Below, one piece after another: positions 286-15,460 of a stretch of DNA of 34,436 bases. Made by a program: the position numbers and the translations under genes. The stretch spans positions 1-34,436 of the forward strand of contig CAMVEM010000008.1 of assembly GCA_947166515.1 (NCBI GenBank), written 5' to 3'. The notes below the pieces were generated by a model. That model did not search any database. It had not been told where the DNA came from and saw only the letters and a list, made by a program, of their open reading frames with translations. Source of the DNA: an uncultured Clostridia bacterium. Lineage in GTDB: Bacteria; Bacillota; Clostridia; Oscillospirales; Ruminococcaceae. How positions within the stretch are numbered: position 1 is the stretch's first letter; the number at the start of each line of letters is the position of its first letter.

Positions 286-3200
286 CGAAGTTATCTTCCG
301 GAGTGAATTCCATGACTTCATCATCAATTTTTTTTGCCTCAGTCTTGACCTCGGTCTCAGGCTTGATCTCAGTCTCAGTCTCAGCCTTGACCACGACCTC
401 GTTTCTGGCTGCAGGTCTGTTTCTCAGCAGATAACGCGCGAGCTTTTCCTCAAGAGCGTCTGTCTCGATAGGCTTGGAAAGATAATCGTCAAAGCCCGCA
501 CTGAGATACTTCTCTTTAGCGCCGTTTACAGCATTCGCGGTAAGTGCTACAACGACTGTATCCTCGGAGACAAGAGATTCGTCTTTAAGCCGCTTAAGCG
601 TCTCAATACCGTCCATCTTCGGCATCATGTGATCCAGGAAGACTATATCATAATGCTTTTTGCGCATCATTTCTATGGTCTTCTCACCCGAAGCCGCAAG
701 ATCAGGCGATACACCGAAGAGCTTAAGCAGGTTCTTCGCTACTTTAAGGTTCATCTCATTATCGTCGGTAACAAGCACTTCTGCATCCGGGAAGACGGGT
801 CTCTCACGCACTTTTCCTACTGCAACTGCTCCGCGTCTTTCGCGCACATTTCCTATGGATTTGCTGTCGGCAATGCCCTGGACTATCTCGAACGAGAAAG
901 TGGAGCCTACGCCATAGACGCTCTCGACCTTAAGCTTGCTGTTCATGAGTTCGAGAAGCTTTGTGACTATTGCCATGCCGAGACCGGTACCCTCGATGTT
1001 GCGGTTTCGTGTCTCATCAAGGCGCGAGAACGACTCGAACAGCTTATCCATATCCTCCTCGCGTATGCCTATACCGGTATCCTTTACTGAAACCAGAAGT
1101 TTAAGATCCTTTTCGCTTCTTTCGACACAGGATATAGTGAGCAGGACGGAACCTTTTTCGGTATATTTTACGGCATTTGTCAGCAGGTTCATAATGACCT
1201 GCGTCAGACGGACATCATCACCGATAAGCTTGCAGGGAAGGTTTTCGTCTATGTTCTCATTGAACTCCAATCCTTTTTCTTTTGCGCGTGACGAAACGGA
1301 GTTCAGAAGATTGTTGATAACGGAAATGGAGTCATATTCCGCAGTGACGAGCTCCATTTTTCCGTCCTCGATCTTTGAGAAGTCGAGAATGCTGTTTATA
1401 AGCGACAGAAGAGTTTTACCCGCTGTCTGTATATTGCTTGAATATTCCAGGATGTTCCGATCGTGTGATTCGTTCAGTATCATCTCATTCATGCCGAGTA
1501 CGGCATTAATGGGCGTACGTATCTCATGCGACATCTGCGCTAAGAATTTTCCCTTCGCGGCACCCGCTGCAGTTGCGGATTCCGCCGCTTCCTTCATACG
1601 TCGGTTCACACCTTCCTGCCAGCGGATAAGCTTTGTGAGCAGCCTGTAAACAATTATTATACAAAGAAGCACGCTCACCAGGCAGATCATTCCCACAATG
1701 AATCCTCTGCCATAGACTACCCAGATATCCGTCGCCTTATATATGACAAAGTTTGATTTATCGCTGCGCTTGGCGGTGAATATCCTTACCGAACCGTCAT
1801 AATCCTGATATACCATTGTGCTCTGGCCGTCAGGATTCAGCTCGCTGCATCTGAGTTCGGAAACATTTACCTTGTTGCTCTCCGACATCTGATATGTACC
1901 GTACGGGTGATTGATTATATTTCCGCTCGCATCGGTAAGAAAAGCGTAGCCTTTCTCTGAATAGCTTGTGCTGAGAATATCTGTCAGCTTATCCATGTAG
2001 AAATCTATACCGAGATTACCTAAGAATTCGCCTGTCGCCGAGTCATTTACCTGCTCGGAAATAGTCACACAGTAAAAGCCTGTCTGCTCGTCGTAATAAG
2101 GTGCTGATATGCTCCAGCCGTCTTCAGTCGCAAGAGTATCCTTATACCACTGGCGCTCCTCAACACGCCAGCCGTCCTCAGGCTTCCAGCCGTTGTTCAT
2201 ATAGACCGTAGGCGTCAGATCAGGGTTCGCCATATAAAGCACCGATATCTCAGGGTATCTTGACGCTATTTTATCGAGGAATTGGATCGTCCTGTCATAA
2301 TCATTGAGCATATCGGAATTTGTGGCGATGATGCCCGCAAGCATATCGAGTATGCTCTTCTGTTTGTTGACCCACTCCGACAGCTGATTTTCATAACTGC
2401 TTACATCATTGGCCATTTCGACCCTTGCAAGGCTTCTGCTCAGAAGCATGGTCGTGGTTATCGTGATCCCCAGAACAATCAGAAGAAGAGTGAGTATGAT
2501 ATTTCTGAAACGCTTGCTTATCCTGAAAGTATAGCCTTTTTTGACGTTGCGCTTCTTTTCCTCTTTCTTTGCATCGTTCTTGACTATGTTCGAATACGAA
2601 AGTATCTGCTGTATCTGGTACGAAAGCTGCTCGACCGAATCATGTATGACGCTGAATCGTTCGTCCGCAGTATCGTTGTCGGGATAATTTCTTGAATCCG
2701 ACCTGCTGAGTATCTTTCTGAGAGGCGTTTCAAGCTCTCCCTTGATACCTGCAAGAAACTCGTCTTTTGATCTGAGCGCATCTTCCGCCTTGCGTCTGTT
2801 GCGCGATGCAGCGACATAGAGAACTATTATCACAGCGGTCAGCGCAAGTGTAAGCACAAGCGTTATTGCAAGCTGTATATATGAATTGCGGTAAAGCTCC
2901 CAATCGCTCTGGCTTACAATGAGATACCAGCCTGCGGATGAACCTGCTGCGAACAGATTCTCATAAAACAAGCCGGATTTTATACGATGCGTCACGACTT
3001 CGTCGCTCGTCTTGGCGAGATAAAAGACTGCCGAATATTCGGGGAGCTTTGAGTTGAGAAGATCGCCGATATATGATTCTTCGGTACACCCTGCGATTAT
3101 TCCGTCCTCGGTGACTATAACAGCATTATGCAGACCGCGTTCCGTCATTTTCGCAACGTGAGACTGTATGCTGTCCATGGTATAATCGACGCTCAGGACT

Positions 3201-12963: not shown

Positions 12964-13002
12964 GTTTCTGTCTCCCCCGCCGGAGGCGGGGGAGACAGAA
13001 AC
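12964..13002. repeat. Perfect 18-bp inverted repeat with 3-nt loop
   Basis: The arms gtttctgtctcccccgcc and its exact complement enclose gga. It lies between two divergent promoters, so no transcript would need to end here, and no T run follows directly on either strand. It resembles a REP-like palindromic element. Between it and the -35 box at 13077 nothing else is visible. Confidence 0.7.
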
Positions 13003-13076: not shown

Positions 13077-13105
13077 TTGACAATACCGGCTTTTTGTGAT
13101 ATAAT
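13077..13105 (+). promoter_or_regulatory. Promoter of the antiporter gene
   Basis: Consensus TTGACA (13077-13082), 17-base spacer ending TGA, TATAAT (13100-13105). Transcription would start near 13112, just before the riboswitch. Confidence 0.85.
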
Positions 13106-13114
13106 AGGCAAATA

Positions 13115-13204
13115 AAGGGAATGACGACCTCCCTCGGATCTTCCGGAACCGCTTTTTCAGGCTGATGGCATCTGCATTTTTATGCAGATACTGTCGGCCT
13201 TTTT
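13115..13204 (+). ncRNA. Fluoride (crcB-type) riboswitch candidate with terminator platform
   Basis: The leader begins with a short stem AGGGA/TCCCT (13116-13134) enclosing AATGACGACC, continues through an extra small hairpin (CGGA/TCCG) and AACCGC, and ends in GGCTGATGGCATCTGC. The AAC-GC and GCTGATGRC blocks with a CUGC/CUAC tail are hallmarks of the crcB aptamer, and fluoride riboswitches are known upstream of cation:proton antiporters. The 3' strand of the aptamer is also the 5' strand of an intrinsic terminator (13160-13204), so ligand binding would switch expression on. The expected pseudoknot between the P1 loop (GACGA) and GCATC pairs at only three of five positions, which weakens the call or means a damaged aptamer. 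Confidence 0.65.
13160..13204 (+). terminator. Riboswitch expression-platform terminator
   Basis: GGCTGA/TCGGCC (one G-U pair) outside and ATCTGCAT/ATGCAGAT inside form a long stem, followed by TTTTT at 13200-13204, only 20 bases before the antiporter start. Confidence 0.8.
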
Positions 13205-13223
13205 AAATTTTACGGAGGCATTT

Positions 13224-14423
13224 ATGTTACTTTCACTTGCTATTATTTTTCTTGTCGGGCTGTCATCAGCCGCTATATTCAAAGCAATAAAGCTGCCGCG
13301 TATCATAGGTATGCTCGCTTCCGGGATAATAGTCGGCCCGTACGTCCTTGATCTGCTCGACCCGTCAATACTTGGAATTTCAAGTGATCTTCGCCGTATT
13401 GCGCTTATCATAATACTAATAAAAGCCGGCTTATCGCTGAATCTGTCTGACCTGAAAAAAGTCGGCAGACCGGCGGTGCTTATGGCATTCCTGCCCGCCT
13501 GCTCTGAGATAGTCGGATATATTTGCTTCGCGCCGATGTTCTTCGGGCTTACGCTTACCGAAGCTGCTGTCATGGGAGCGGTTCTCGCTGCGGTCTCCCC
13601 CGCTGTCGTTGTCCCGCGAATGGTGAAGCTGATCGAAGAAAAGCAAGGCACGGACAAGAGCATACCGCAGCTGATACTCGCGGGAGCTTCCTGCGACGAC
13701 ATCTTCGTTATTGTCCTGTTTTCGACATTCGTTACAATGGCACAGGGCGGAACGGTAAGCGCGCTTGACTTTGCCAATATCCCGATCTCGATAGTCCTCG
13801 GAGTACTGCTCGGAGTCGCAGCGGGGTTTGCTCTGTTTCTGCTGTTTGAGTTTGCATACAAAAAAGGTCTCAAAATACGAAACACATTGAAAGTCATAAT
13901 CATTCTCGCAGTCGCGTTTCTGCTGATTTCAGCCGAGACTATGCTCACGGGTATCATTGCGGTATCCGGACTTCTCGCGGTGACTGCCATGGCTTGTGTG
14001 ATAAAAATAAAAAGCGACAAGGCTGTATCGTCGCGGATCTCGGAAAAATTCGGCAAACTGTGGATACCAGCCGAAGCCGTTCTGTTCGTACTTGTCGGCG
14101 CTGCTGTCGATATCCGTTACACACTCTCAGCGGGAGTGTCAGCATTGGCGATGATTTTTATTGCTCTCGCCTTCCGGGCTGTCGGAGTTCTCATCTGTCT
14201 TATAGGTACAGAACTGGGCGCAAAGGAACGTCTGTTCTGCGTTATCGCCTATCTCCCGAAAGCTACGGTGCAGGCGGCTATCGGGTCGGTACCGCTGGCC
14301 CTCGGGCTGCCGTGCGGGAACGCTGTGTTGTCGGTGGCGGTGCTTGCGATAATCATTACCGCACCGCTCGGCGCAATAGGTATTGACGCGACCTGCAAAA
14401 GGCTTCTCATATCGGAGAAATAA
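13224..14423 (+). CDS. Cation:proton antiporter (CPA/NapA-KefB type membrane domain)
   Basis: The product has 399 residues with about 12-13 transmembrane helices and no cytosolic NAD-binding domain. The family core helices are visible: the GLSSAAIFKAIKLPRIIGML entry, AGLSLNLSDLKK, AAVSPAVVVP (unwound helix), and GASCDDIFVIVLFST, whose Asp-Asp pair matches the ion-binding helix of electrogenic CPA2 exchangers. It would exchange Na+ or another cation for protons across the cell membrane. The ORF track starts inside the terminator at 13182; ATG 13224 is chosen because ACGGAGG lies seven bases upstream and the protein then begins with the first membrane helix. Expression is probably controlled by the leader at 13115-13204; a link to fluoride toxicity is inferred. 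Confidence 0.88.
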   Translation: MLLSLAIIFLVGLSSAAIFKAIKLPRIIGMLASGIIVGPYVLDLLDPSILGISSDLRRIALIIILIKAGLSLNLSDLKKVGRPAVLMAFLPACSEIVGYICFAPMFFGLTLTEAAVMGAVLAAVSPAVVVPRMVKLIEEKQGTDKSIPQLILAGASCDDIFVIVLFSTFVTMAQGGTVSALDFANIPISIVLGVLLGVAAGFALFLLFEFAYKKGLKIRNTLKVIIILAVAFLLISAETMLTGIIAVSGLLAVTAMACVIKIKSDKAVSSRISEKFGKLWIPAEAVLFVLVGAAVDIRYTLSAGVSALAMIFIALAFRAVGVLICLIGTELGAKERLFCVIAYLPKATVQAAIGSVPLALGLPCGNAVLSVAVLAIIITAPLGAIGIDATCKRLLISEK

Positions 14424-14435
14424 GTCATATAAATG

Positions 14436-14464
14436 TTGCAAAAAATCTGATTTTATGATATAAT
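14436..14464 (+). promoter_or_regulatory. Promoter of the patatin/APH operon
   Basis: TTGCAA (14436-14441), 17-base spacer ending TGA, TATAAT (14459-14464). Confidence 0.65.
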
Positions 14465-14554
14465 TGTCTGAAAATGAAATCACGACTTATGACTTTTCAG
14501 ATCACCTATACAAAACAGAAAAAATATTTTTAAGGAACTAAGGATATAACAATT

Positions 14555-15460
14555 ATGAGCAAACGAGTTTATAAAGGTCTTGACAGGCTCCCGACCGGCA
14601 CGGCAAGCGAAAAACTGTCAGAAGGCTGCCTTGTGCTTGAAGGCGGAGGCTGGAAGGGACTTTATACAGTCGGTGTTCTCGACTGTATGATGATGAATGA
14701 TATAAACATATCGAATGTAGTCGGAGTCTCTGCCGGAGCCCTCTCGGCTGTCGGCTATGTATCCGGCCAGATAGGCTTGTCAGCGCGTATCGATCTGACT
14801 TACAGACATGACAGCAATTATTGCGGTATGGGAGCAATGCGGCGCGATCACGGCATCACAGGATTTACATATCTGTTCACTGATATTCTTGAAAAGATGT
14901 CCCTTGATAAGAAGCGTCTTATGGACCCAGCACGAAAGTTGATAGTAACGGCGACCGACATTACTACAGGGCGGATAAAACACTTTGAAAAAGGAAAGTG
15001 CGATATATTCCGCGCTATCCAGGCATCCGCAACAGTTCCCTATGTCTCCCGCCCGGTGATGATAGACGGAGTCCCATATCTTGACGGAGGCTGCGCAGAG
15101 AAGATCCCGTACTCATGGGCAGAAAACTCGGGAGAGAAAAAGATCGTAGTGGTAAAGACGCGTGAAGCAAGTTACCGCAGAAAACCGGGAACTTCAAAGA
15201 TTGCAAAGATATGGTACAGAAAATACCCGCTATTTTTAGAAAGCCTTAATTCAACAAACGAAGATTTCAATAAAACTGCGGATATGCTTGAACAAAAAGC
15301 AAAGGAAGACTCGATATTTCTTATAGAACCGTCCGAACCTGTCACCGTAAAGCGGTTTGACGGTGATATGGAAAAGCTCGGAAACCTTTACTGGCTCGGT
15401 TATCACGATATGGAAGCAAGAGTCGGTGAACTGAAAAGATATCTTAAGAAAAGCGAATAA
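14555..15460 (+). CDS. Patatin-like phospholipase family protein
   Basis: The 301-residue protein is a predicted Ser-Asp dyad acyl hydrolase. The oxyanion block is EGGGWKGLYTVGVLD (about 29-43), the nucleophile elbow is GVSAG with Ser59, and the catalytic aspartate is in LDGG (Asp177). Length and order match the bacterial YjjU/RssA-type patatins acting on lipids at the inner face of the membrane. AAGGAACTAAGGAT precedes the ATG. It is followed 18 bases later by an APH-fold kinase, likely in one transcript. The lipid substrate is unknown. Confidence 0.9.
   Translation: MSKRVYKGLDRLPTGTASEKLSEGCLVLEGGGWKGLYTVGVLDCMMMNDINISNVVGVSAGALSAVGYVSGQIGLSARIDLTYRHDSNYCGMGAMRRDHGITGFTYLFTDILEKMSLDKKRLMDPARKLIVTATDITTGRIKHFEKGKCDIFRAIQASATVPYVSRPVMIDGVPYLDGGCAEKIPYSWAENSGEKKIVVVKTREASYRRKPGTSKIAKIWYRKYPLFLESLNSTNEDFNKTADMLEQKAKEDSIFLIEPSEPVTVKRFDGDMEKLGNLYWLGYHDMEARVGELKRYLKKSE

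Follow-up and report, generated by a model that had tools for sequence, protein, structure and literature searches.

Does the leader of a cation:proton antiporter gene in an uncultured Clostridia bacterium form a functional fluoride riboswitch when part of its pseudoknot appears unable to pair? The gene and its leader lie in a 34,436-nucleotide stretch of contig CAMVEM010000008.1 (here called the window). A preliminary description of the sequence had proposed that the weakened pseudoknot might reflect an unusual register, a damaged aptamer with the gene mostly off, or a shift in ligand specificity. Our analysis points to a working, transcription-terminating fluoride ON switch over an NHA2-like antiporter, with a lineage-specific weakened and probably bulged pseudoknot, a reading to which we give a probability of about 0.75; register and ancestry between them settle most of the earlier doubt.

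Layout and family of the leader

The leader (13077 to 13223) contains, in order, a promoter (TTGACA at 13077 to 13082 and TATAAT at 13100 to 13105, with a spacer of 17), P1 (GGGA/TCCC), a small hairpin, AACCGC, GCTGATGGCATCT, a terminator and a ribosome-binding site, and the antiporter ATG follows at 13224. The features are listed below, with aptamer bases numbered after Thermotoga petrophila.

13077 to 13105, + strand: sigma-A promoter, TTGACA-17-TATAAT with an extended -10, 12 of 12 consensus matches, position kept in relatives
13108 to 13181, + strand: crcB/fluoride riboswitch aptamer (putative; Rfam RF01734, 32.7 bits, E 1e-7, gathering score 34)
13117 to 13133, + strand: P1 stem, GGGA (13117 to 13120) with TCCC (13130 to 13133) around a 9-base loop (13121 to 13129), pairs invariant in 59 diverse relatives
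13123 to 13129, + strand: pseudoknot 5' strand, G8 A9 C10 G11 A12 C13 C14, from the register analysis, with A12 (13127) the proposed bulge
13135 to 13145, + strand: extra hairpin CGGA/TCCG between P1 and core, helix columns 19 to 21 covarying with 41 to 43
13147 to 13152, + strand: conserved core AACCGC, from the covariance-model alignment, invariant or nearly so
13151 to 13162, + strand: P3 stem, GCTT (13151 to 13154) with AGGC (13159 to 13162), 92% of cells paired and double changes at two pairs
13161 to 13173, + strand: core GCTGATG with pseudoknot 3' strand G42 to C47 (13167 to 13172), from the covariance-model alignment and the alignment of relatives
13159 to 13204, + strand: predicted intrinsic terminator, stem 13159 to 13200 and U-run 13200 to 13204, from the minimum free energy (MFE) structure
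13214 to 13218, + strand: ribosome-binding site GGAGG, from the sequence, kept in most aligned relatives
13224 to 14423, + strand: NHA2-like cation:proton antiporter, 399 aa, intact, from PF00999, the NHA2/SLC9B2 structures and dN/dS

All of the parts named in the preliminary description (promoter, P1, AACxGC and GCTGATGRC blocks, overlapping terminator) were found, the two blocks as AACCGC and GCTGATGGC. The linchpin bases A40 (13165) and U48 (13173) are intact, as are all core bases (AACNGC, CUGAUG). P1 of the window has four pairs, and P3 has three Watson-Crick pairs and one G-U. Among the relatives, double changes occur in P3, in the extra hairpin and in the pseudoknot, and the whole structure scores higher than shuffled and slid controls. 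The outer pair of the extra hairpin occurs as four pair types, with 25 double-change cells in 59 sequences, covariation which indicates that the insert between P1 and core is a real helix. Upstream, between a divergent GNAT gene and the riboswitch promoter, lies a perfect 18-base inverted repeat (12964 to 13002; GTTTCTGTCTCCCCCGCC, 3-base loop), the core of which is found at ~39 places in the genome with up to 2 mismatches and at none in a backwards control; it is a dispersed palindromic repeat.

The covariance-model comparison, which had been proposed earlier, found the family at a score just under its curated limit. In a permissive scan of the 201-base leader against all 4227 Rfam families, the RF01734 match aligned 64 of 64 model positions, but its score lies 1.3 bits below the 34-bit cut-off, so that a default, gathering-level scan returns nothing for this leader. 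A subtype member of the fluoride riboswitch class can escape default scanning in this way. Genome-wide the match has an E value of 3.7e-7 and is the sole credible one in the genome of the window. No other family among the 4227 gave a meaningful match to the leader, and the Li+ and Na+ riboswitch families showed none up to an E value of 10.

Searching with the antiporter yielded 80 orthologous loci, many of which come from Ruminococcus of rumen and gut or from other Clostridia. An automatic procedure parsed the same leader in at least 71 of these; orthologous leaders in the genus score 37 to 52 bits against RF01734. Searches of 71 genus genomes and 299 family genomes with the same model returned many matches above the cut-off, with the antiporter just downstream at nearly all checkable loci. 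The earlier view of a fluoride-type riboswitch preceding a cation:proton antiporter is thus borne out by the RF01734 and PF00999 matches and by orthologues with the same leader. The leader is very probably a real fluoride riboswitch, for which fluoride is the putative ligand and ON the putative direction of response.

Most of these aptamers belong to one subtype, describable as P1 GGGA/UCCC with the loop AUGANGUUC and its relatives. A 9-base P1 loop is present in 150 of 184 unique aptamers, 147 of which have P1 GGGA/TCCC with a long insert before the core. Aptamers with an 8-base loop mostly have GGCG/CGCC or a similar P1, with only 2 to 5 bases before the core, and most do not adjoin this antiporter. 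The pair counts given below leave out five sequences for which the parser had chosen the wrong register, as well as one sequence carrying a classic P1. One metagenome-assembled genome, RUG12593, encodes three antiporter paralogues (L033, L036, L051), each under its own fluoride riboswitch, as does G048 (L310, L327, L330); the pseudoknots of these riboswitches have CxA or UxU at the 10-45 position. L036 has a ~70-base extra spacer from terminator to start codon (upstream of base 3001), and in L058 the aptamer 3' half and terminator are duplicated in tandem before the antiporter (upstream of base 3001).

Register and ancestry of the weakened pseudoknot

In the standard register, G8-C47, A9-U46, G11-C44 and C13-G42 pair and C10xA45 and A12xG43 fail, giving four pairs of six; the count of two mismatches in five positions made in the preliminary description is right for this register. 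That description overlooked the extra base in the P1 loop (nine bases rather than the standard eight), which makes another register possible for the upper pseudoknot. If A12 is bulged, C13-G43 and C14-G42 form and five of six positions pair.

Patterns among the relatives are consistent with such a bulge. In 144 of 144 nine-base-loop aptamers, base 43 has a possible partner at 12 or 13 (142 Watson-Crick and 2 wobble, uncorrected for kinship). Where base 43 is G, exactly one of sites 12 and 13 is C in 15 of 17 aptamers, C12 in nine and C13 in six (likewise kinship-uncorrected), and all seven aptamers with a failed 12-43 pair, the window included, have a Watson-Crick 13-43 pair. In L187 (GACAGTC/GACGTC) a bulge at 11 allows six pairs of six, a result also given by duplexfold. 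None of the closest sisters shares A12xG43 with the window; they carry U12 or C12. The A12/C13/G43 set is also found in a separate lineage (L014), and other leaders with A12, C12 or G12 retain the 13-43 pair.

Other observations leave the bulged register less secure. C14 and G42 are invariant across the 144 aptamers, so that covariation lends no support to the C14-G42 pairing itself. Standard and bulge-12 registers have nearly equal whole-structure scores, and duplexfold did not find the fully paired bulged form for the window. The simplest model is a six-pair pseudoknot that would end in C14-G42 and carry one bulged base at 11, 12 or 13, which would be A12 in the window and would leave a single mismatch there. 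An unusual register would thus account for A12xG43, the three-dimensional form being a prediction of this model; it does not account for C10xA45, which is a real mismatch.

The C10xA45 mismatch has an ancestry. In a FastTree phylogeny of the 119 antiporters with parsed leaders, the window groups with four other rows (100% support), and all five leaders carry CxA at 10-45, so that comparison with close relatives finds the mismatch common to all of the nearest ones. All nine CxA rows, the window among them, form one clade (support 94), nested in a Ruminococcus-type clade of 46 rows (100%) that comprises 31 UxU, 9 CxA, 4 U-G, 1 U-A and 1 C-G. Base 10 is a pyrimidine in 46 of 46 members of this clade and outside it is mostly a purine that pairs; UxU occurs elsewhere in a few rows (L004, L307 and L008). 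Synonymous divergence between the window and L042 is 1.7, at which a neutral site should have lost the 10-45 pattern, and the mismatch therefore looks kept rather than decaying. By these comparisons C10xA45 is real but inherited, and appears to be mostly a lineage trait rather than damage.

The pseudoknot is nevertheless weak, as had been proposed. The calculated duplex energy of the common type is -4.4 kcal/mol. CxA leaders average -2.1 and UxU leaders have -0.6; the nearest sisters reach -2.2 to -2.5 and the window only -0.3, so that the calculated helix of the window is ~4 kcal/mol weaker than the common type and ~2 kcal/mol weaker than those of its nearest sisters. In experiments on other fluoride riboswitches, weakening the pair at the corresponding pseudoknot position altered behaviour, a point against a fully working switch here. 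The weaker pseudoknot may be a form of tuning.

Antiporter gene, proposed switching and alternatives

The antiporter matches PF00999 over residues 7 to 389 (E 2e-43; 149 bits, cut-off 26.2). Its nearest solved structures are those of NHA2/SLC9B2 (E 1e-31), with similarity over ~375 residues and a conserved Asp-Asp motif. It is 88 to 91% identical to its nearest relatives, and dN/dS values of 0.05 to 0.07 at a dS of ~1 indicate that the gene is under strong purifying selection. In L306 (genome G060), a 93%-identical antiporter copy, from base 330, is frameshifted after ~161 residues with the riboswitch still present; G060 has a Fluc gene. In the window, the next gene downstream (14436 to 15460) encodes a patatin-like phospholipase and has its own promoter-like site (14436 to 14464).

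Neither a Fluc nor a CLC match was found in the genome of the window, which is 83% complete. Among 71 genus genomes, Fluc and CLC are both absent in 11 of 12 with a close antiporter (at least 68% identity) versus 29 of 58 others (Fisher p 0.009, uncorrected for kinship); adding more divergent antiporters removes the effect (p 0.58, 71 genus genomes). Replacement of Fluc and CLC by the antiporter is only a lead.

The leader has an MFE of -35.5 kcal/mol (z = -4.7), and the terminator draws on the 3' strands of both P3 and the pseudoknot (in the latter, bases 42 to 47), as expected of an expression platform that competes with the pseudoknot. The alignment shows G-C at the outermost, basal terminator pair of the window, where L034 has G-U and L033 has A-U, a pattern that reads as a compensatory series. 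A comparison for co-tuning between terminator and pseudoknot strength showed little difference in group means. In the absence of fluoride, strand 13159 to 13177 would pair into the terminator and transcription would stop before the antiporter gene. With fluoride, the P1 loop would pair with 13167 to 13172, A40-U48 would close, the terminator could not form and the antiporter, which probably serves pH and ion homeostasis under fluoride stress, would be made. Such a protective role is the usual assumption; transport of fluoride by the antiporter would be the alternative. The 9-base P1 loop would allow the upper pseudoknot to pair through the one-base A12 bulge up to C14-G42, with 10-45 a retained mismatch that has a pyrimidine at 10 (CxA in the window, UxU in most of the clade). 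Bulge and C14-G42 together may take over the role of the classic weak top pair, to which the Ruminococcus clade would add a weak point in the middle of the pseudoknot. A pseudoknot weakened in this way would be expected to lower basal read-through and to raise the fluoride threshold.

We consider it unlikely that the aptamer is damaged, with the base-12 change breaking an already weak pseudoknot so that termination always prevails and the antiporter stays mostly unexpressed. The absence of A12xG43 from the closest sisters and the additional ~2 kcal/mol speak for this explanation, but the bulged register restores C13-G43 and C14-G42, the L014 lineage combines the same three bases, and the 13-43 pair is kept in other A12, C12 or G12 leaders. 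Promoter, core, terminator and ribosome-binding site are intact; a mostly silent gene is also at odds with the mismatch common to all nearest relatives, with the series at the terminator base and with a dN/dS of ~0.06. A more improbable account is a base or assembly error at 13127, where the true base would be U or C, as in the sisters, leaving the clade-wide CxA as the one real mismatch. The assembly is a draft (83% complete, 271 contigs) and a single base separates the window from L033 and L034 at this site; against an error stand the recurrence of A12/C13/G43 in L014 and the otherwise error-free appearance of leader and gene.

A switch of ligand, for example to Na+ or Li+ to suit the antiporter, appears very improbable. 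In its favour are the presumed Na+ or Li+/H+ antiport by the gene product and the departure of P1 loop and pseudoknot from the classic type; the core and A40/U48 are, however, unchanged, and the Li+ and Na+ riboswitch families have no match. Moreover, according to PMC11139923, which cites Baker 2012, Na+/H+ antiporters are already the second most common gene class under fluoride riboswitches, next after exporters. Intact core and linchpin bases, together with purifying selection on the gene, make damage and a ligand shift alike unlikely. Hardly credible at all is a chance likeness with no riboswitch behind it: the score does fall under the gathering threshold, but the E value is 1e-7, orthologous leaders are conserved in at least 71 of 80 genes and the helices covary. 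We thus retain the working fluoride ON switch with a weakened, probably bulged pseudoknot. A wider proposal seems doubtful to us: that the fluoride aptamers of gut Clostridia include a structural subclass of their own, defined by the 9-base loop and the bulged pseudoknot, in which the Ruminococcus lineage has a selected mid-pseudoknot mismatch that raises the fluoride threshold, and that the NHA2-like antiporter takes the place of Fluc and CLC-F as the chief protein of fluoride defence.

Comparison with known systems

Li+ (nhaA-I, nhaA-II) and Na+ (DUF1646) riboswitches are also associated with cation transport genes; the leader differs from them in having no sequence or structure match to either. 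With NHA2/SLC9B2 and the bacterial NapA-type antiporters (PF00999), the gene product shares the ~375-residue similarity and Asp-Asp motif, and differs in being a putative bacterial transporter under a fluoride riboswitch. Clostridioides difficile has a fluoride riboswitch before a ClC gene and an NhaP-type antiporter (PMC11477304). Both Firmicutes thus place a cation:proton antiporter downstream of a fluoride riboswitch; unlike in C. difficile, the antiporter is the first gene here and no CLC-family protein was found in the genome of the window.

The closest parallels are the RF01734 examples of Bacillus cereus and T. petrophila, in which magnesium folds the aptamer, fluoride locks it via A40-U48, and the terminator is thereby denied the 3' strand of the pseudoknot (PMC11077080, PMC8752731). 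The A40-U48 pair acts as a linchpin (PMC8752731), and strand exchange between pseudoknot and terminator is described in PMC11077080 and PMC13273304. The leader resembles both in P1, P3, the AACCGC and GCUGAUG core and A40/U48, and in a pseudoknot that joins the P1 loop to a strand also entering the terminator. It differs in its 9-base P1 loop with an A-U closing pair (8 bases and G-C there), in a covarying hairpin within an insert of usually at least 12 bases between P1 and core, in the 10-45 mismatch, and in a probable bulge where they have a top U-G wobble. According to laboratory work, pseudoknot make-up decides the switching ability of a fluoride riboswitch, one weak top pair being critical (PMC11077080), and the 1901-variant transcription dataset of PMC13273304 may include leaders of the 9-base-loop subtype. 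Aptamers before this one gene family range from fully paired through wobble, UxU and CxA to probable bulges (at 11, 12 or 13), a natural series in which the stability rule could be tested without designed mutants. The locus itself represents a modest natural variant of a familiar device.
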